A DNA stretch of 64,000 nt from Betaproteobacteria bacterium (GTDB lineage Bacteria > Pseudomonadota > Gammaproteobacteria > Burkholderiales > Usitatibacteraceae): the NCBI GenBank assembly GCA_019449455.1, contig JAGRPO010000121.1, forward strand, positions 1 to 64,000, in the 5' to 3' direction. Each line of letters starts with the position of its first letter. Position 1 is the first letter of the stretch. This document shows positions 29,673 through 38,905 of the stretch, in pieces. The position numbers and the translations under genes are program-made. Under the pieces are notes generated by a model. The model was not told where the DNA came from, ran no database searches, and worked only from the letters and a program-made list of their open reading frames with translations.

Positions 29673-32287
29673 GGCGGGCATTGGCGACGCGAGTCTCGGC
29701 CCGGGAAGAGGAGCGCGTGGCGCGGCTCGCGGGGTTCCGTATCCTCGGAACGCCACCCGAGCCCGCCTTCGACGATCTCGCCCGCCGTGCCCAGGAGGCG
29801 GCGCATGCGCCCATGGCCTGGCTCGCGTTCCACGACGGGCCGCGCGAATGGGTGAAGGCGGGCGTCGGCATCGCCTTCGCCGAGCTCGCGGGCGCGCGCC
29901 GGATCTCCTCCCGGGGCGACGCGCCCGCCGTCGGCCTCGAGGTCGAGGATGCGATGACCACCGAGCTGCGCTCGCACCCGCTCGTCGCGGGCGAGCCGCG
30001 CCTTCGCTTCCTGTGCGTGGTGCCGCTGGTGACCGAGGACGGTCATACCGTGGGCGCGCTCGTCGTCGCCGACCGCATCGCGCGCCGCCTCGAGCCCGCG
30101 CAACGCACCGCGCTCGGCAATCTCGCCATGCTCGCGATGGCGCGGCTGGAAGCCAGGCGCGCGTCCGAGCCGGGCGACGACGCGCAGGAGGCCCGGGACC
30201 GCGCCGAGGAGGCGCAGGAGCAGCTCGCCCGCGAGCGGCAGTTCGCGGACGCCGTGATCCAGAGCCTGCCCGGCGCCTTCTTCCTCTTTTCGGGCGAGGG
30301 CGAAATGCTGCGCTGGAACGCGCGCCTGCAGGCCGTCACGGGGTACACCGGCCTCGAGATCGCGGGGATGCGCCCGCTCGACCTGATCATGCCCGCCGAC
30401 AGGGCGGCGGTCGAGGTGGCCATCCGCGAGGTGCTCGAACGCGGGCGCGAAGTCTCGATCGAGGCCCAGATGCGGGACAAGGCGGGCGCGGGCAGGCCGT
30501 ACGCGTTCACCGGCAGGCCGCTGCGCGTGGCGGGTGAGACGTACGTGATGGGGTTCGGGCGCGACCTCTCCGAGAGGAAGCGCGCGGAGGAGCAGACGAT
30601 TCGCGCCAAGGAGCGCCTCGACCTGGCGCTCACGGGCTCGAGCCTCGCCCTGTGGGACTGGGACCTGCGGTCGGACCGCGTGTACTTCAACGAGGGATGG
30701 GCGGCGCTGGTGGGTGAGCGCCCGCGCGAGTCCACGGTGCCCCGGGACGAGGTGCGCGCCTGGAACCATCCGGAGGACGCGGGCCTCTACGAGGCCGCGG
30801 TGGCCAACGCGGTCCGGGGCGTGAGCGAGGAGTTCGAGTGCGAGTACCGGGTCCGTCACGCCTCGGGCGACTGGATCTGGATCTACTCGCGCGGCAAGGT
30901 CACGCAGCGCGACGGCGCGGGCCGCGCGCTGCGCATGACCGGCACCGCGACCAACGTCACGAAGCGCAAGGAGGCCGAGGAGCGGGCCGAATTCCTCGCC
31001 ACCCGCGACCCGCTCACGGGGCTGCCCAACCGCGTCCTGCTGCACGACCGCCTCGAGCAGGGGATCGTGAACGCGGCACGGCACCGGTCGGGCTTCGCGT
31101 TCATGTTCATCGACCTCGACCGCTTCAAGACGATCAACGACTCCCTCGGCCACGACGTGGGCGACGAGCTCCTGAAGCGCGTGGCCGCGAGGCTCGCCGC
31201 GTGCGTGCGCGCCTCCGACACGGTGGCTCGGCTCGGGGGCGACGAGTTCGCGGTCATCCTCGAGAATCTGCGCGACACCGACGACGAAGGGGCCCAGCAG
31301 GTCGCCGACAAGATGATCGCCGCGATGGGCGCGCCGATGCTCATCGGCAGCCAGCACCTCAACACCTCGTGCTCGATCGGGATCAGCCTCTATCCCGCCG
31401 ATGGCAAGGACAGCGCCACGCTCATGAAGCACGCGGACGTGGCCATGTACTACGCCAAGGAGAAGGGCCGCAACAACTACCAGTTCTTCTCTCCGGAGAT
31501 GAACCTGCGCGCCCAGGAGCGGCTTTCGATCGAGAACTACCTCCGGCTCGCCCTGCGCAGGAACGAGCTGGTCCTGCATTACCAGCCGCGCATCCGCATG
31601 TCCGACGGCGCGCTCACCGGCATGGAGGCCCTCGTGCGCTGGCTGCATCCGCGCCGCGGCCTTCTCGCGCCGGAGAAGTTCATCGACGTTGCCGAGGACT
31701 CGGGGCTCATCGTCCCGATCGGCGAGTGGGTGCTGGAGCGGGCGTGCCGGCAGGCGCGCGACTGGCAGCGCGCGTTCGGGAGGAACCTGAAGCTCTCCGT
31801 GAACCTCTCCGTCGGCCAGGTGAACGACGGCGAGCGCCTCTACCGCGCGATCGACGCCGCGATACGGGGAGCGGGAATCGACCCGTCGACGCTGGAGCTC
31901 GAGCTCACCGAGAGCATGCTCATGCAGAACCTCGGCGAGAAGGCCGCCCTCCTCAACCGCCTCGGCGGGCTGGGCGTCGGGATCTCGATCGACGATTTCG
32001 GCACCGGCTATTCGTCGCTCTCCTACCTGAAGACGCTGCCGGTGGACGCGATCAAGATCGACAGCTCCTTCGTGCGCGACATCGGGCTCGACGCGAACGA
32101 CGAGGCGATCGTGCGCGCCATCATCGCGATGGCGCACTCGCTCAAGCTTTCGGTGATCGCCGAGGGCGTGGAGACCGAGGCCCAGTTCGCGAGCCTCAAG
32201 ACCCTCGGCTGCGACGAGTTCCAGGGCTACTTCGCAAGCCCGGCGCTGCCGCCCGCGGAATTCGAGCTGCGGCTCGCCCGGGGCTGA
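29669..32287 (+). CDS. GAF-PAS-PAS-GGDEF-EAL cyclic-di-GMP protein
   Basis: This 872-residue protein has no membrane span. Domains in order: GAF (about 15-165), a coiled linker, PAS (about 190-310), PAS with PAC (about 320-440), GGDEF (about 445-605) and EAL (about 620-870). The GGDEF motif is intact (ARLGGDEFAV), with an inhibitory I-site RASD five residues upstream. The EAL domain keeps MEALVRW, ELTESMLM and the IDDFGTGYSSL loop. It may therefore make or degrade c-di-GMP, or switch between the two, in response to a ligand or redox signal. The GTG start overlaps the xthA stop; a TTG at 29681 is an alternative. It ends directly against the ntrC stop. Confidence 0.92.
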   Translation: MRRALATRVSAREEERVARLAGFRILGTPPEPAFDDLARRAQEAAHAPMAWLAFHDGPREWVKAGVGIAFAELAGARRISSRGDAPAVGLEVEDAMTTELRSHPLVAGEPRLRFLCVVPLVTEDGHTVGALVVADRIARRLEPAQRTALGNLAMLAMARLEARRASEPGDDAQEARDRAEEAQEQLARERQFADAVIQSLPGAFFLFSGEGEMLRWNARLQAVTGYTGLEIAGMRPLDLIMPADRAAVEVAIREVLERGREVSIEAQMRDKAGAGRPYAFTGRPLRVAGETYVMGFGRDLSERKRAEEQTIRAKERLDLALTGSSLALWDWDLRSDRVYFNEGWAALVGERPRESTVPRDEVRAWNHPEDAGLYEAAVANAVRGVSEEFECEYRVRHASGDWIWIYSRGKVTQRDGAGRALRMTGTATNVTKRKEAEERAEFLATRDPLTGLPNRVLLHDRLEQGIVNAARHRSGFAFMFIDLDRFKTINDSLGHDVGDELLKRVAARLAACVRASDTVARLGGDEFAVILENLRDTDDEGAQQVADKMIAAMGAPMLIGSQHLNTSCSIGISLYPADGKDSATLMKHADVAMYYAKEKGRNNYQFFSPEMNLRAQERLSIENYLRLALRRNELVLHYQPRIRMSDGALTGMEALVRWLHPRRGLLAPEKFIDVAEDSGLIVPIGEWVLERACRQARDWQRAFGRNLKLSVNLSVGQVNDGERLYRAIDAAIRGAGIDPSTLELELTESMLMQNLGEKAALLNRLGGLGVGISIDDFGTGYSSLSYLKTLPVDAIKIDSSFVRDIGLDANDEAIVRAIIAMAHSLKLSVIAEGVETEAQFASLKTLGCDEFQGYFASPALPPAEFELRLARG

Positions 32288-33691
32288 TCAGTCCTTCGCG
32301 TCTATCCGCAGCTCCTGGACCTTGCGCGTGAGCGTGTTGCGGCCGATGCCCAGCAGGCCCGCGGCCTCGATGCGCCGCCCTCCCGTATGGGCGAGGGCGC
32401 GCGTGATGAGGGCGGTCTCGAAGTCGCGCGTCAGGGCATCGGCGATCCCGCTTTCCCCGCGGGCCAGGCGATCGGCGACCTCGCGCTCGAGGGCGCGGCG
32501 CCAGTCGCCGCCGTCGCCCGCGAGGGACGCCGCCGGCACCTCGCCCCGGATCTCGGCCGGAAGGTCCGCGACGTCGACCACCTGGCCGGGCGCCATGACG
32601 GTGACCCAGTGGCACAGGTTCTCGAGCTGGCGCACGTTTCCCGGGAATTCCCGGGTCGACAGGAACTGGACCGCCGCGTCGGTGAGGCGCTTGCCTTCCA
32701 CGCCCAGCTCGCGCGCGCTCTTGGCGAGGAAATGCCGCGCGAGCACCGGGATGTCGTCCCTGCGCTCGCGAAGGCTGGGAAGCCGCAGGCGGATCACGTT
32801 CAGGCGGTGGAAGAGGTCCTCGCGGAAGAGTCCCTGCCGCACGCGGGCCTCGAGCTCCTGGTGGGTGGCCGCGATCACGCGCACGTTGGCGGTGATCGGC
32901 GTGTGGCCGCCCACGCGGTAGAACTGCCCGTCGGAGAGCACGCGCAGGAGCCTCGTCTGCAGGTCCGACGGCATGTCGCCTATCTCGTCGAGGAACAGCG
33001 TGCCGCCCTCGGCCTGCTCGAAGCGGCCGCGGCGCATCGCCTGGGCCCCGGTGAATGCCCCGCGCTCGTGGCCGAAAAGCTCGCTCTCCAGGAGATCCTT
33101 CGGGATCGCCGCCGTGTTGATGGCGATGAAGGCCTTGCCCGATCGCGGGCTGTGGCGGTGAAGGGCTCGCGCGACGAGCTCCTTGCCCGTGCCGGACTCT
33201 CCGGTGATCAGCACCGTCGCGTGGGACTGCGACAGCCGCCCGATCGCGCGGAAGACCTCCTGCATCGCGGCCGCCTGCCCGAGGATCTCGGGGGTTTCGC
33301 CGTCGGCCGGCGGCGCCTCGACACGCCGCCGGCTCTCCTCGAGCGCGCGGCGCACCAGCTCGACGGCGTGGTCGACGTCGAACGGCTTGGGCAGGTACTC
33401 GAACGCGCCGCCCTGGAAGGCCGCCACGGCGCTCTCGAGGTCCGAATAGGCCGTCATGACGATCACCGGCGTCGACGGCAGGTGCTCCTTGAGGGTCTGC
33501 ATGAACTCGAGCCCGGAGAGGCCCGGCATGCGGATGTCGCTCACGACGACCTGCGGGGGCTCCTCGGCGAGGTGGTCCAGCGCTTCCTGCGCGGTGGCGA
33601 ACGTCCGGTGCCCGATGCCTTCGCGCGTGAGCGCCTTCTCGAAGACCCAGCGGATCGAGCGGTCGTCGTCGATTATCCAGACGGGGTTCAT
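32288..33691 (-). CDS. ntrC: Nitrogen regulation response regulator NtrC (sigma-54 activator)
   Basis: This 467-residue protein has a receiver domain with acidic pocket D8-D9, phospho-acceptor D52, T80 and K102. Its AAA+ domain has GESGTGKE and the sigma-54 contact loop GAFTGA. The C-terminal Fis-type helix-turn-helix ends GLLGIGRNTLTRKVQEL. It is phosphorylated by NtrB when nitrogen is scarce and activates sigma-54 promoters such as the one in front of glnA at 37.15 kb. It lies 15 bases downstream of ntrB. Confidence 0.97.
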   Translation of the reverse strand: MNPVWIIDDDRSIRWVFEKALTREGIGHRTFATAQEALDHLAEEPPQVVVSDIRMPGLSGLEFMQTLKEHLPSTPVIVMTAYSDLESAVAAFQGGAFEYLPKPFDVDHAVELVRRALEESRRRVEAPPADGETPEILGQAAAMQEVFRAIGRLSQSHATVLITGESGTGKELVARALHRHSPRSGKAFIAINTAAIPKDLLESELFGHERGAFTGAQAMRRGRFEQAEGGTLFLDEIGDMPSDLQTRLLRVLSDGQFYRVGGHTPITANVRVIAATHQELEARVRQGLFREDLFHRLNVIRLRLPSLRERRDDIPVLARHFLAKSARELGVEGKRLTDAAVQFLSTREFPGNVRQLENLCHWVTVMAPGQVVDVADLPAEIRGEVPAASLAGDGGDWRRALEREVADRLARGESGIADALTRDFETALITRALAHTGGRRIEAAGLLGIGRNTLTRKVQELRIDAKD

Positions 33692-33706
33692 GGCTTCGCC
33701 TTCATG

Positions 33707-34771
33707 TCAGTGCCGCGCGAGCCCGGCCTGCTGGGGGCTGCGCACGGGCAGGAGGATCGTGAAGCGCGTGCGCCCCGGCGCGCTTTCGAATTCGATGAGT
33801 CCGTGGTGCTGGTGCACGTAGTTCTGCGCGAGCGACAGGCCCAGGCCCGTGCCGCCGTCGCGCCCGCTCACCAGCGGGAAGAAGATCTTTCCGGCGAGAT
33901 CCTCGGGGACGCCGGGCCCGTTGTCCTCGATCTCCACGGACACGGCGTGGCGGTACCGGGTCTTGGCGATCGTCACCTGGCGCGCGATCCGCGTCCGGAA
34001 CGCGATCTCGCCGCGGCCCTCCATCGCCTGCGCGGCGTTGCGCGCGACGTTGAGGATGGCCTGGATGAGACTCTCCTTGTCGCCCGGCAGGTCCGGCAGG
34101 CTCACGTCGTAGTCGCGGCGCACCGACAGCCCCTCGGGGTATTCCGCGAGCAGCAGCGTCCTCACGCGCTCCATCACCTCGTGCACGTTGAGCATCTCGA
34201 TCTGCGGTAGGCGGTGCGGCGTGAGCATCCGGTTCATGAGCGACTGCAGGCGGTCGGTTTCCTTCACGATCACCTGCGTGAACTCCTTCAGGTCGGGATC
34301 GGGAAGCTCCCGCTCGAGAAGCTGCGCCGCGCCGCGGATGCCACCCAGGGGGTTCTTGATCTCGTGCGCGAGGTTTCGGATCAGTTCCCGGTTGGCCTGC
34401 TGCTGCTCCAGGAGCTTCGCCTCCTTCGCGATGCGGATCTGCTGGTCGAGCTCGCGCAGCTCGATGAGCAGTCGCCCGCCGTCCTCGGTGACCGGGACGG
34501 CCACGCAATGCACGATCGCGGGCTGCCCGCCCAGCTCGAGGGCGAGCTCGTTCTCGTTGAACCCCGCGTCGTCCGCGACGGCCTGCTCGAGCCGCGCGAC
34601 GAAGCGGTCGTTGCCGGGAAGCACCTTCGCGAGCGCCGTGCCGAGCAGGTGCTTGCGCCCGTGGGCCAGGAGCGTCTCGGCGGCGGGATTGGCGTAGGTC
34701 ACGCGCAGGTGCTCGTCGAGCACCAGCACGGCGGTCGCGAGCAGCTCGAGGCCCGGATAGGGCGTTGTCAC
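33707..34771 (-). CDS. ntrB: Nitrogen regulation sensor kinase NtrB
   Basis: This 354-residue soluble kinase has an N-terminal PAS domain (about residues 5-110), HisKA with NLAHEIKNPLGG (phospho-acceptor His136), and HATPase_c with NVARNAAQAM, DNGPGVP and GTGLGLSLAQ. It phosphorylates NtrC and in the known pathway is switched to a phosphatase by PII, which is not in this window. The GTG at 34769-34771 gives the standard N-terminus TTPYPGLELL. Confidence 0.96.
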   Translation of the reverse strand: MTTPYPGLELLATAVLVLDEHLRVTYANPAAETLLAHGRKHLLGTALAKVLPGNDRFVARLEQAVADDAGFNENELALELGGQPAIVHCVAVPVTEDGGRLLIELRELDQQIRIAKEAKLLEQQQANRELIRNLAHEIKNPLGGIRGAAQLLERELPDPDLKEFTQVIVKETDRLQSLMNRMLTPHRLPQIEMLNVHEVMERVRTLLLAEYPEGLSVRRDYDVSLPDLPGDKESLIQAILNVARNAAQAMEGRGEIAFRTRIARQVTIAKTRYRHAVSVEIEDNGPGVPEDLAGKIFFPLVSGRDGGTGLGLSLAQNYVHQHHGLIEFESAPGRTRFTILLPVRSPQQAGLARH

Positions 34772-34868
34772 GCCTGCGTGCCCCGGGAGCGAGCAGCAGG
34801 GACCGCGCCAGCGAAACGCGCTGGCGCGTCGGCAGAAGGGGATTGCCGGAAGAGGGGACTGCGCGAGG

Positions 34869-35465
34869 CTAGGGCTTTTGCCCGCCGAGCTCTTTCTTGA
34901 GCGCCTCGACGTTTTTCTCGTGCTCGGCGACGGTGGCCTGCAACCCCCGGATGCGCCCGGAGGCCTTGTCGATCGCCGCGCGCATTTCCGCCTGCTGCGC
35001 GGGCGTGGGGTCGGTGGCTTGCTGCGCGACGCGCACCGCCGCGATGAGCGTCGGATTCTGCCGTTCCTCCAGGAGCGCCTTGCGCGCCTGGACAAGGGAC
35101 TGCTCCTCCTGCGCGAGCTCGTCCTCCAGGATCTTGCGCCGCACCTCGTCGCGCCCCTTCTGCGTGTCGCGGTCGATCGAGGCGACGGTGGTCGGCAGGG
35201 CCCTCGGCGTCACCACGGCAACCGCGGGCTTCACGGAAAGCTTCTCCAGCGCCCTTGCCGCCGTCTTGTCCGCCGGGCTTGCCGGCGGCGTGAAGCCCGG
35301 CATCGTTACCAAGGGCTCGAGGTCCAGCACGGTCGCGCCCTTCATGGGCCGGTTGGTGTAAGTGACGTGGCCGTTTGCGTCGACGTGCTTGTAGATCGTC
35401 GCCTGGGCGAGGGCCAAGGGCGAAGCGAGGCTTACCGCGACACCGATCCAGAGCGTCTTCATCAC
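34869..35465 (-). CDS. Exported DUF4124 protein in the glnA-ntrBC cluster
   Basis: This 198-residue protein has a signal peptide (ends near LALAQA, residue 22), a DUF4124 domain (IYKHVDANGHVTYTNRPM) and a long charged helical C-terminal half predicted to form a coiled coil. Its function is unknown. A DUF4124 gene between glnA and ntrB is, to my knowledge, a common arrangement in betaproteobacteria. It lies 97 bases before ntrB. Confidence 0.85.
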   Translation of the reverse strand: MMKTLWIGVAVSLASPLALAQATIYKHVDANGHVTYTNRPMKGATVLDLEPLVTMPGFTPPASPADKTAARALEKLSVKPAVAVVTPRALPTTVASIDRDTQKGRDEVRRKILEDELAQEEQSLVQARKALLEERQNPTLIAAVRVAQQATDPTPAQQAEMRAAIDKASGRIRGLQATVAEHEKNVEALKKELGGQKP

Positions 35466-35493
35466 GCACTCCCGCGCACGACAGGGGATGGTC

Positions 35494-35523
35494 AGGATAG
35501 GGAGTGGTCATTTAAAAAGTCAA
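35494..35523 (-). promoter_or_regulatory. Candidate sigma-70 promoter for DUF4124-ntrB-ntrC
   Basis: On the minus strand TTGACT (reverse complement of 35518-35523) and TATCCT (35494-35499) are 18 bases apart, 29 bases before the DUF4124 ATG. This would give ntrBC a basal supply independent of glnA read-through. Confidence 0.5.
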
Positions 35524-35604
35524 CAAGATCAAAGGCCTAGGTAGAAAATGCCCCATACCTTGTGGTTTGGGGCGGTAACGACCACAAGGGCGCCGGCGGA
35601 TCCG

Positions 35605-35638
35605 AAAAATAAAAAGGGGCGGACGGGTCCGCCCCTTT
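35605..35638 (-). terminator. Rho-independent terminator downstream of glnA
   Basis: An 11-base perfect stem (35613-35623 with 35628-35638, AAAGGGGCGGA/TCCGCCCCTTT) has a CGGG loop. On the minus strand it is followed by TTTTTATTTTT, 25 bases beyond the glnA stop. Confidence 0.9.
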
Positions 35639-35662
35639 CGTGCCAACTCGGACCCCGGGGCT

Positions 35663-37072
35663 TCAGGCCGAGTAGTACATGTCGTACTCGACCGGGTGCG
35701 TCGTCATGCGGAAACGCGTGACCTCCTCCTGCTTGAGGGCGATGTACGCGTCGATCAGGTCGTTGGAGAACACGCCGCCGCGGGTGAGGAACTCGCGGTC
35801 CTTGTCGAGGTAATCCAGCGCCTGGTCGAGCGAGGAGCACACCGTCGGGATCTTGCGTTCCTCCTCCGGCGGCAGGTCGTAGAGATTCTTGTCGGCCGGG
35901 TCGCCGGGGTGGATCTTGTTCTGCACGCCGTCGAGCCCCGCCATCATCAGGGCGGCGAACGCAAGGTAGGGGTTGGCCGTCGGGTCCGGGAAGCGCACCT
36001 CGATGCGACGCCCCTTCGGGCTCGACACGAACGGGATGCGGATCGAGGCCGAGCGGTTGCGCGAGGAGTAGGCGAGTTTCACCGGCGCCTCGAAGCCGGG
36101 CACGAGCCGCTTGTAGGAGTTGGTGCCGGGGTTGGTGATGGCGTTGAGCGCACGCGCGTGCTTGATCACGCCGCCGATGTAGTAGAGCGCGAAATCGGAA
36201 AGCCCCGCGTAGCCGTCGCCCGCGAACAGGTTCTGGCCGCCCTTCCAGATGGACATGTGCACGTGCATGCCGGAGCCGTTGTCCCCCACGACCGGCTTGG
36301 GCATGAAGGTCGCGGTCTTGCCATAGCTGCGCGCCACGTTCCACACGGTGTACTTGAGGATCTGCAGCCAGTCGGCGCGCTTCACCAGCGACTCGAACTT
36401 GGTGCCGATCTCGCACTGGCCGGGGCCGGCCACCTCGTGGTGGTGGACTTCGACCTCGACGCCCTGCTCCTCGAGCGCGAGGCACATCGCCGAGCGGATG
36501 TCCTGCAGCGCGTCGACCGGGGGCACCGGAAAGTAGCCGCCTTTCACCGACGGGCGGTGGCCGAGGTTGCCGCCCTCGAACTTCTCGTCGGAAGACCACG
36601 AGGCTTCCTCCGAGAAGACCTTGCAGTACGCGCCCGACATGTCCACTTTCCACTCGACCGCATCGAAGATGAAGAACTCGGGCTCGGGGCCGAAGTACGC
36701 CACGTCGCCGATGCCCGAGGACTTGAGGTAGGCCTCCGCGCGGTGGGCGAGCGAGCGCGGGTCGCGGTCGTATCCCTTGCCCGTGGAAGGCTCGTGCACG
36801 TCGCAGGAGAGGGCGAGCGTGGGCTCGTCCATGAACGGGTCCATGCGGGCGGAACCCGGGTCCGGCATCAGCAGCATGTCCGAGGCCTCGATGCCCTTCC
36901 ACCCGGCGATGGAGGAGCCGTCGAAGGCGTGGCCGTGCGAGAACTTCTCCTCGTCGAACATCTTCACCGGCACGGTGACGTGCTGCTCCTTGCCCTTGGT
37001 GTCGGTGAAACGAAGGTCCACGAACTTGACCTCGTTTTCCTTGATCATCTTGAAGACATCGGCCGCTGCCAT
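35663..37072 (-). CDS. glnA: Glutamine synthetase type I
   Basis: This 469-residue enzyme (same length as E. coli GlnA) makes glutamine from glutamate, ammonia and ATP. It has [17 protein letters not shown], the ATP-binding [14 protein letters not shown] and the adenylylation-site motif NLYDLPPEE with Tyr near residue 398, so activity is probably controlled by GlnE. The ATG at 37072 has AGGAGA upstream; further upstream in-frame codons belong to the promoter region. It is transcribed from a sigma-54 promoter with NtrC sites and ends at a strong terminator. Confidence 0.98.
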
Positions 37073-37151
37073 GACTCTTTCTCCTGATTGAGGGATAACG
37101 CCCCAGATTGGGGAATGGATCGGGTTGATAAACGGTTTGAGACAAGGGAAT

Positions 37152-37167
37152 AGCAGAAAGCGTGCCA
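37152..37167 (-). promoter_or_regulatory. Sigma-54 promoter of glnA
   Basis: The minus strand reads TGGCACG-CTTT-CTGC, one mismatch from the consensus TGGCACG-N4-TTGC, with GG and GC at the required -24/-12 spacing. Transcription should start near 37141, leaving a leader of about 70 bases before the glnA ATG. Confidence 0.88.
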
Positions 37168-37204
37168 CGGCTGCCCGCTTGCAAACCATTGATTCTCAAT
37201 GATC

Positions 37205-37221
37205 TGCACCGAATCAGCGCA
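37205..37221 (-). promoter_or_regulatory. Weak NtrC-like dyad, glnA upstream region
   Basis: TGCAC-N7-GCGCA has one mismatch from the NtrC dyad TGCAC-N7-GTGCA and is centred 23 bases from the first strong site. It may be a low-affinity site. Confidence 0.4.
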
Positions 37222-37227
37222 ACAGGA

Positions 37228-37244
37228 TGCACTTGCATGGTGCA
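37228..37244 (-). promoter_or_regulatory. NtrC binding site 1 (glnA enhancer)
   Basis: TGCAC-N7-GTGCA matches the conserved ends of the NtrC dyad on both arms. The centre lies about 95 bases upstream of the predicted glnA transcription start. Confidence 0.8.
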
Positions 37245-37257
37245 TCAAGTATGCATG

Positions 37258-37274
37258 CGCACCACAAAAGTGCA
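37258..37274 (-). promoter_or_regulatory. NtrC binding site 2 (glnA enhancer)
   Basis: CGCAC-N7-GTGCA keeps the GCAC/GTGC core on both arms. Its centre is 30 bases, about three helical turns, from site 1, the arrangement that supports cooperative NtrC oligomerisation at the E. coli glnA promoter. Confidence 0.75.
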
Positions 37275-37307
37275 ACCTAGGGAAAATACCGCAGTTCCGC
37301 CTCCCAA

Positions 37308-37320
37308 CTATATATAGAAT
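37308..37320. promoter_or_regulatory. Palindromic TATATATA element, likely aroE promoter -10
   Basis: CTATATATAG (37308-37317) is a perfect palindrome and runs into TAGAAT (37315-37320), offering -10 sequences toward aroE (plus) and also toward glnA (minus). The -35 regions are weak. Confidence 0.45.
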
Positions 37321-37406
37321 TCGCGGCCTTCGACCTCCGGCGGCTATCATGGCTGCGGGCGCAACGCCCCCCTTTTTCGCCTGAATCAGGAATCGCTCCC
37401 GCATCG

Positions 37407-38213
37407 ATGGATCGGTACGTCGTCATCGGCAACCCCGTTGCCCACTCGCTCTCGCCCGAGATCCACGCGCGCTTCGCGCTCGCGACCGGCGAGACGCTCG
37501 CCTACGACAGGCTTCTCGTCGAACCGGGCGATTTCGCGCGGGCGGCCCGCGGGTTCTTCGCCGCCGGCGGGCGTGGCGCGAACGTGACGCTCCCCTTCAA
37601 GGTCGATGCGTTCGAGTTCGCGCAGGAACGCACGGCACGCGCCGAGCAGGCGGGCGCAGTGAACACGCTTGCGGCTCGCGCGGGCATCGTGCTCGGCGAC
37701 AACACGGACGGCGCCGGGCTCGTTCGCGATCTCACCGTGAACCTGGGTCTCGGGCTCGGCGGCAAGCGAATTCTCCTCGTGGGCGCGGGGGGCGCCGCGC
37801 GCGGCGTGGTCGCCCCGCTGCTGGACCTTTCGCCCGCGATGCTCGTCGTCGCCAACCGGACGCGGGAGCGTGCGCGCGAGCTGGCGCTGCGCTTTCGGGA
37901 CGCGGGCCCGGTCGAGGGGGTCGGCCTCGATGCGATGGGCGGAGGGTTCGACCTGGTGGTGAACGCCACTTCCACGTCCACACGCGGGGAAGCGCTCGCG
38001 CTTCCCCGCGGGCTCTTCGCGCCGGGCGCGACCGCCTACGACATGGCGTACGGCCCCGCGGCACGGCCGTTCCTCGAGAGGGCGCGCGCGGCCGGGGCAA
38101 ACGCGTGTGACGGCCTGGGCATGCTGGTCGAACAGGCGGCGGAAGCCTTCTTCCTGTGGCGCGAGCGCAGGCCGGACACGGCGGGCGTGATCGCCGCGCT
38201 GCGGGCGGCGTGA
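37407..38213 (+). CDS. aroE: Shikimate dehydrogenase
   Basis: This 268-residue NADP-dependent enzyme of aromatic synthesis has YVVIGNPVAHSLSPEIH at the N-terminus, NVTLPFK carrying the catalytic lysine near residue 65, the dinucleotide loop VGAGGAARGV near 130 and YGPAARPFL near 215. GTG of mtgA overlaps its stop (GTGA), a pairing I know from other betaproteobacteria. Confidence 0.96.
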   Translation: MDRYVVIGNPVAHSLSPEIHARFALATGETLAYDRLLVEPGDFARAARGFFAAGGRGANVTLPFKVDAFEFAQERTARAEQAGAVNTLAARAGIVLGDNTDGAGLVRDLTVNLGLGLGGKRILLVGAGGAARGVVAPLLDLSPAMLVVANRTRERARELALRFRDAGPVEGVGLDAMGGGFDLVVNATSTSTRGEALALPRGLFAPGATAYDMAYGPAARPFLERARAAGANACDGLGMLVEQAAEAFFLWRERRPDTAGVIAALRAA

Positions 38214-38905
38214 GCCGGCTTGCGCGCCTCGCGGGCTGGGCAGCGCTTGCGCTCTGCGCGACGTTCGTCGCCTACGAGCTCTCCATCCTCGCGCGCCTGG
38301 CGTGGTGGCGCGGGCACGATCCTTCAACGACCGCATTCATGGAGGAGCGGCACGACCGGCTTCGAGAGAGGAAGCCGGGCGCCGCGCTGCGCCACGCCTG
38401 GGTCCCCTACGCGCGCATATCGGGCCACCTGAAGCGCGCGATCGTCGCCGCGGAGGACGCCAAGTTCGCCGACCACGAGGGCTTCGACTGGGAGGCGATG
38501 CAGAAGGCCTGGGAGAAGAACCAGAAGCGCGGCAAGGTGGTGGCAGGCGGCTCCACGATCTCGCAGCAACTCGCGAAGAACCTCTTCCTCTCGGGGAGCC
38601 GAACGCCCTGGCGCAAGGCCCAGGAGGCGATGATCACGGTCATGATGGAATCCGTCATGGACAAGCGCCGCATCCTCGAGATCTACCTCAACGTGATCGA
38701 GTGGGGCGACGGCGTGTTCGGGGCCGAGGCCGCGGCGCGCCACTACTACGGGGTGAGCGCCGCCGCCCTCACTCCCGCGCAGGCCGCGCGCCTGGCCGCG
38801 ATGGTCCCCAACCCCCGCTTCTACGACCGCAATCGCGCCACGCCCTGGCTCGAGAGGAAGACCCAGATCATCCTCGCGCGCATGGCTGCCGCCGAAGTTC
38901 CTTGA
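38210..38905 (+). CDS. mtgA: Monofunctional biosynthetic peptidoglycan glycosyltransferase
   Basis: This 231-residue protein has one N-terminal membrane anchor (about residues 8-27) and a GT51 domain: EDAKFADHEGFDW near 80 (catalytic Glu), GGSTISQQLAKNLFL near 110, and KRRILEIYLNVIEWGDGVFG near 150. It polymerises glycan strands from lipid II without transpeptidation. The start is GTG at 38210, coupled to aroE. Confidence 0.95.
   Translation: MSRLARLAGWAALALCATFVAYELSILARLAWWRGHDPSTTAFMEERHDRLRERKPGAALRHAWVPYARISGHLKRAIVAAEDAKFADHEGFDWEAMQKAWEKNQKRGKVVAGGSTISQQLAKNLFLSGSRTPWRKAQEAMITVMMESVMDKRRILEIYLNVIEWGDGVFGAEAAARHYYGVSAAALTPAQAARLAAMVPNPRFYDRNRATPWLERKTQIILARMAAAEVP

Follow-up and report, generated by a model that had tools for sequence, protein, structure and literature searches.

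The window, which is the whole stretch of 64,000 nucleotides that was analysed, carries on its minus strand the gene glnA for a type I glutamine synthetase of 469 residues (35663–37072; TIGR00653 with 662 bits over a cut-off of 429, Pfam Gln-synt_N and Gln-synt_C). It is followed on the same strand by a gene for a DUF4124-domain protein (34869–35465; PF13511, 34.6 bits, cut-off 22), by ntrB (glnL), which encodes the sensor kinase and begins with GTG (33707–34771; NF008293 for NR(II), 375 bits, cut-off 240), and by ntrC (glnG), which encodes the sigma-54 activator (32288–33691; TIGR01818, 692 bits, cut-off 559). Receiver, AAA+ and Fis-type HTH domains were identified in the ntrC product with Pfam, and both NtrB and NtrC exceed the equivalog cut-offs expected of true orthologues. 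On the plus strand, the divergent neighbour aroE (37407–38213; NF001310 and TIGR00507, both over cut-off) bounds an intergenic region of 334 bp upstream of glnA. The genome, a 3.48 Mb draft in 341 contigs that was examined by pattern searches, also encodes RpoN (PF04552, E 1.5e-65), two PII proteins, GlnD and the two IHF subunits IhfA and IhfB (TIGR00987 and TIGR00988, each over its cut-off once).

Upstream of glnA, a -24/-12 element, TGGCACGCTTTCTGCT, can be read directly on the minus strand at 37167–37152 as TGGCACG-CTTT-CTGCT. It deviates at one position from TGGCACG-N4-TTGCW and is the sole match in the window with at most one mismatch. The invariant GG and GC are present at the correct spacing, as expected of a sigma-54-dependent promoter, and the deviating base, a C instead of T before TGC in the -12 part, is common among the glnA promoters of the clade. 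The geometry of sigma-54 promoters places the predicted transcription start at 37141, and together with the ATG at 37072 this would give a leader of 69 nt (37073–37141, minus strand); no known RNA elements were found by Rfam in 32000–38500 at E ≤ 0.1.

Three dyads of the NtrC type, TGCAC-N7-GTGCA, precede this element on the minus strand. Counted from the predicted start, dyad 1 (TGCACTTTTGTGGTGCG, 37258–37274, one mismatch) is centred at -125 and dyad 2 (TGCACCATGCAAGTGCA, 37228–37244) at -95, so that two dyads lie within the 80 to 160 bp upstream that are characteristic of such enhancers. Dyad 2 is the only perfect copy in the window and one of three in the genome. The third and weaker dyad (TGCGCTGATTCGGTGCA, 37205–37221, one mismatch) is centred at -72. 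An earlier note on this DNA had described a minus-strand sigma-54 promoter with one mismatch, two dyads 30 bases apart at about 95 and 125 bases upstream and a weaker third one, and all of these are borne out; the 30-bp spacing, given there as about three helical turns, corresponds to 2.9 turns.

At two mismatches the single patterns, sigma-54 element and dyad alike, occur at background level in the window. The sigma-54 pattern has seven matches there against 7.8 expected, and the element by itself is therefore weak evidence. The combination of sites is informative: a sigma-54 match with at least two dyads at -60 to -220, one mismatch being allowed in each, occurs once in the window and in none of 100 dinucleotide-preserving shuffles of it, while three dyads within the 334-bp intergenic region were seen in none of 5000 shuffles. 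Among the 22 sigma-54 pattern matches in the genome with at most one mismatch, only that of glnA has more than one upstream dyad with at most one mismatch.

For comparison, 80 related glnA loci were collected and 28 genomes of the family were searched, 26 of which gave matches; the non-redundant set that was compared comprised 96 betaproteobacterial glnA upstream regions. Five of the metagenome-assembled records (L040, L047, L052, L062 and L089) are titled Lysobacter, Klebsiella pneumoniae or Bordetella parapertussis. Their glnA genes are close to those of uncultured Betaproteobacteria and the titles seem to be in error; L040 is apparently the same as G005, a genome of the same genus.

The sequence TGGYAYR-N5-TGCW is present in 75 of the 96 regions (shuffled mean 0.12). 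With one mismatch allowed, a sigma-54 site could be placed in 92, and at least one dyad accompanies it in 86 of these (14.0 after shuffling) and at least two in 51 (1.45 after shuffling), although the loci compared are related and the counts are not independent events. The spacing between dyads peaks at 30–31 bp (31 pairs), and the dyads cluster at about -125 to -130 and at about -95 to -98. In an ungapped alignment of the genus, the -24/-12 element, the three dyads and an IHF-like element stand out as islands of identity in diverged DNA. Six other members of the genus retain the architecture, with 47–65% upstream identity outside the IHF motif, and keep the dyad positions at -125, -95 and -72, the last with one to two mismatches. 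One further member (L122/L039, genome G003; 35% identity) retains the sigma-54 element and, of the dyads, only the one at -95; those at -125 and -72 and a clear IHF site are lost, which indicates that the full site set is not essential. The proposal of a sigma-54/NtrC control region for glnA is thus supported by comparative genomics, both by the conserved islands and by the recurrence of the architecture across Betaproteobacteria. We consider it very probable, on the strength of these sequence patterns, that glnA is under NtrC/sigma-54 control from a canonical sigma-54 promoter.

The control region had been called complete. This applies to the sigma-54 element and the dyads, but a conserved putative IHF site within 37152–37274 had been overlooked. 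The IHF consensus, WATCAANNNNTTR, is matched exactly by AATCAATGGTTTG at 37194–37182 on the minus strand, centred at about -47 in the gap between the dyads and the sigma-54 element, where a site for an IHF-assisted enhancer is expected. IHF sites usually have an A/T-rich flank, and in the window this flank is weak. Of 24 promoters of the family, 10 contain an exact match that lies -26 to -30 from the TGG (shuffled mean 0.004), and 19 have the core TCAANNNNTTR at that fixed position, as compared with none of 68 other betaproteobacterial promoters; L122 and four other family members are without the core. Within the core, TCAA and TT are invariant, the N4 is variable and the last base is always A or G. 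Such constant placement in most of the family argues strongly that a sequence of the IHF type is under selection. There is precedent for the arrangement, as RpoN promoters commonly have IHF bound in the stretch that separates them from their enhancers (PMC7962754) and a perfect IHF match accompanies the mapped sigma-54 start of Xylella glnA (PMC3224663). We infer binding of IHF at 37182–37194, and participation of IHF in the activation of glnA appears likely.

A different element, TRTGGCANAAT (the N being C, A or G), is present in 32 of 72 glnA promoters of Betaproteobacteria outside the family (for instance L051, L069 and L064, among L041–L112), upstream of the sigma-54 site, the most frequent distance to the TGG being about 30 bp. 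None of the 24 family members has it. With an R as its second base and the pattern TG-N-CANAAT, the box looks like an extended -10, and no conserved -35 was seen for it; the box probably represents the extended -10 of a second, housekeeping promoter of glnA in these bacteria. Reading the box, TGGCACAAT, as a second sigma-54 promoter was rejected, as the GC of the -12 part is usually missing and the box does not keep a constant distance from the sigma-54 site.

The presence of this box at roughly the same place as the IHF-like element is one reason to ask whether TCAANNNNTTR might instead belong to a housekeeping promoter or bind some other regulator, in which case the sigma-54/NtrC assignment would be right and the intrinsic flexibility of the DNA would suffice for looping, as it does at E. 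coli glnAp2. For Herbaspirillum seropedicae, two oppositely regulated promoters have been reported for the glnAntrBC operon (Schwab 2007, as cited in PMC5648810), which would favour such a reading as well as the one discussed next. However, the invariant and variable positions of the core described above fit the IHF consensus, its hexamer would make a poor -10 and both IHF subunits are encoded, so that we regard a role other than IHF binding as unlikely. It is somewhat easier to imagine, though still doubtful, that glnA has tandem promoters, the sigma-54 promoter being joined by a sigma-70 promoter that overlaps the distal NtrC site and is repressed by NtrC as is E. coli glnAp1. A weak TTGCAC-N16-CATACT can be read by eye across dyad 1; against this, a sigma-70 scan found nothing within the glnA–aroE intergenic region, and all 24 family members lack the TRTGGCANAAT box.

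That the sigma-54 and dyad matches arose by chance and glnA is controlled otherwise would agree with the background frequency of the sigma-54 element taken alone at up to two mismatches. The combination of sites recurs in no shuffle and is conserved across the class far above the shuffled expectation; on these two grounds a chance origin was rejected, and hardly any probability attaches to it. The preferred reading is NtrC/sigma-54 control with an IHF site in the loop.

In the earlier note, ntrBC were placed 3 kb away and the regulatory loop was held to be readable almost fully from the sequence. The genes are indeed on the same strand, the distance downstream from the predicted transcription start being about 2.4 kb to the start of ntrB and about 3.4 kb to that of ntrC, but the loop does not hold up as a direct one, as several features part ntrBC from glnA. 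A strong intrinsic terminator with a 12-bp stem and a T-rich tail follows glnA (35612–35639, minus strand), and an equivalent G+C hairpin with a T-rich tail is visible in relatives of the genera g1, g2 and g4. Downstream of it lies a sigma-70-like promoter, TTGACT-N18-TATCCT (35494–35523, minus strand), which is the only promoter found in a scan of 32000–38500 and would serve DUF4124-ntrB-ntrC. It is kept in four relatives from the same genus, g1 (L120, L121, L123 and L124), in the single g2 member (L125) and in one of three g4 loci (L126); the genus member that has lost two dyads, L122/L039 (G003), is also without this box. The locus thus does not fit the picture of a single glnA-ntrB-ntrC operon. 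Given the terminator, the DUF4124 gene and the separate conserved promoter, activity of the glnA promoter would reach ntrBC via read-through only, if at all, and such read-through is possible.

The DUF4124 gene is apparently part of the ntrBC transcription unit. Upstream of the promoter, an approximate inverted repeat, CTTGTGGT-N14-ACCACAAG, is present at 35585–35540 on the minus strand with GTATGGGG at its end. One half, CCACAANNTATGG, is conserved in three of the family's four genera and lies 42–43 bp ahead of the -35 element in the promoter of DUF4124-ntrBC. The repeat is a candidate for a regulator site or a structure.

Elsewhere in the genome, sigma-54 matches with upstream dyads (at most two mismatches) were found before torF-glnK(-amtB), before an NrtA-like gene of the NMT1_2 type and before ybiB, which is consistent with an Ntr regulon. 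The torF-glnK site (genome G000, contig C213; L013) consists of a sigma-54 promoter, TGGCACGCTCCCTGCT, and NtrC-like dyads at -127 and -107; amtB, identified by eye, begins downstream. The NrtA-like gene (C284, L019) and ybiB (C193, L012), both preceded by sigma-54 and dyad patterns, are likely further targets of NtrC. One more sigma-54 match (L021) has a distant dyad. Within 80 bp upstream of the sigma-54 sites of glnK, the nrtA-like gene and ybiB, no IHF site with at most one mismatch was found.

The glnALG operon of E. coli and Salmonella is transcribed from glnAp2, a sigma-54 promoter with a pair of strong NtrC dyads that are separated by about 30 bp and lie some 100–140 bp upstream. Additional weaker NtrC sites lie closer to the promoter, and a terminator and a separate weak promoter precede ntrB. 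The window resembles this system in its sigma-54 promoter, its dyad pair at about 30 bp, its weaker proximal site and the terminator and separate promoter before ntrB. It differs in the IHF consensus within the loop, in enhancers that are about 15 bp closer, in the DUF4124 gene between glnA and ntrB and in the lack of a recognisable glnAp1. The proximal sites of enteric glnAp2 have been treated as governor sites (reference cited in PMC4740811). In Xylella fastidiosa, the sigma-54 start of glnA has been mapped, and upstream there are two putative NtrC sites and a putative IHF site that matches AATCAA-N4-TTG perfectly (PMC3224663), the same three types of site as in the window. Xylella, however, is a Gammaproteobacterium whose glnA is clustered with PII and ammonium transporter genes, and the third dyad and the tight, family-wide fixed position of the IHF site distinguish the window from it. 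Herbaspirillum seropedicae and Burkholderia cenocepacia belong to the same class as the window and share the gene order glnA-ntrB-ntrC and activation of glnA by NtrC; in B. cenocepacia an ntrC mutation lowers glnA about 28-fold (log2 -4.8; PMC5491218). In both, the three genes are described as one operon, with two promoters in H. seropedicae, whereas the window has a strong terminator, DUF4124, a separate promoter and an IHF site.

Taken together, activation of glnA might proceed as follows. Under nitrogen limitation, GlnD would uridylylate PII and NtrB would phosphorylate NtrC, which may then occupy the strong dyads at -125 and -95 by cooperative assembly. Bending of the DNA by IHF at about -47 would bring the NtrC oligomer into contact with sigma-54 RNA polymerase in its closed complex at -24/-12, and this contact would drive ATP-dependent formation of the open complex. 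The -72 dyad probably tunes the output, either by offering NtrC a further place to dock or by acting as a governor that caps activation when NtrC is abundant. Most glnA transcripts would end at the terminator after the gene, and DUF4124-ntrB-ntrC would be transcribed mainly from its own housekeeping promoter, to which read-through from glnA may add. Occupancy of the sites, bending by IHF, the role of the third dyad and read-through are steps that we infer, while the sites, their positions, the genes and the terminator rest on sequence and conservation.

The core mechanism is textbook, and the conserved family-specific IHF site is the exception to this. It is conceivable, though we advance it only tentatively, that the family has exchanged basal glnA transcription for an IHF-gated switch driven purely by NtrC and sigma-54, with ntrBC uncoupled onto their own promoter. 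If this is true, the fixed IHF site of the family would sit where many relatives carry a probable extended -10 promoter. For a betaproteobacterial lineage about which little is known, the analysis annotates the central nitrogen switch with good support. The contrast between a conserved IHF site in one family and a probable housekeeping promoter in many other Betaproteobacteria makes a trade of basal transcription against IHF-assisted looping at glnA enhancers testable with existing reporter systems.
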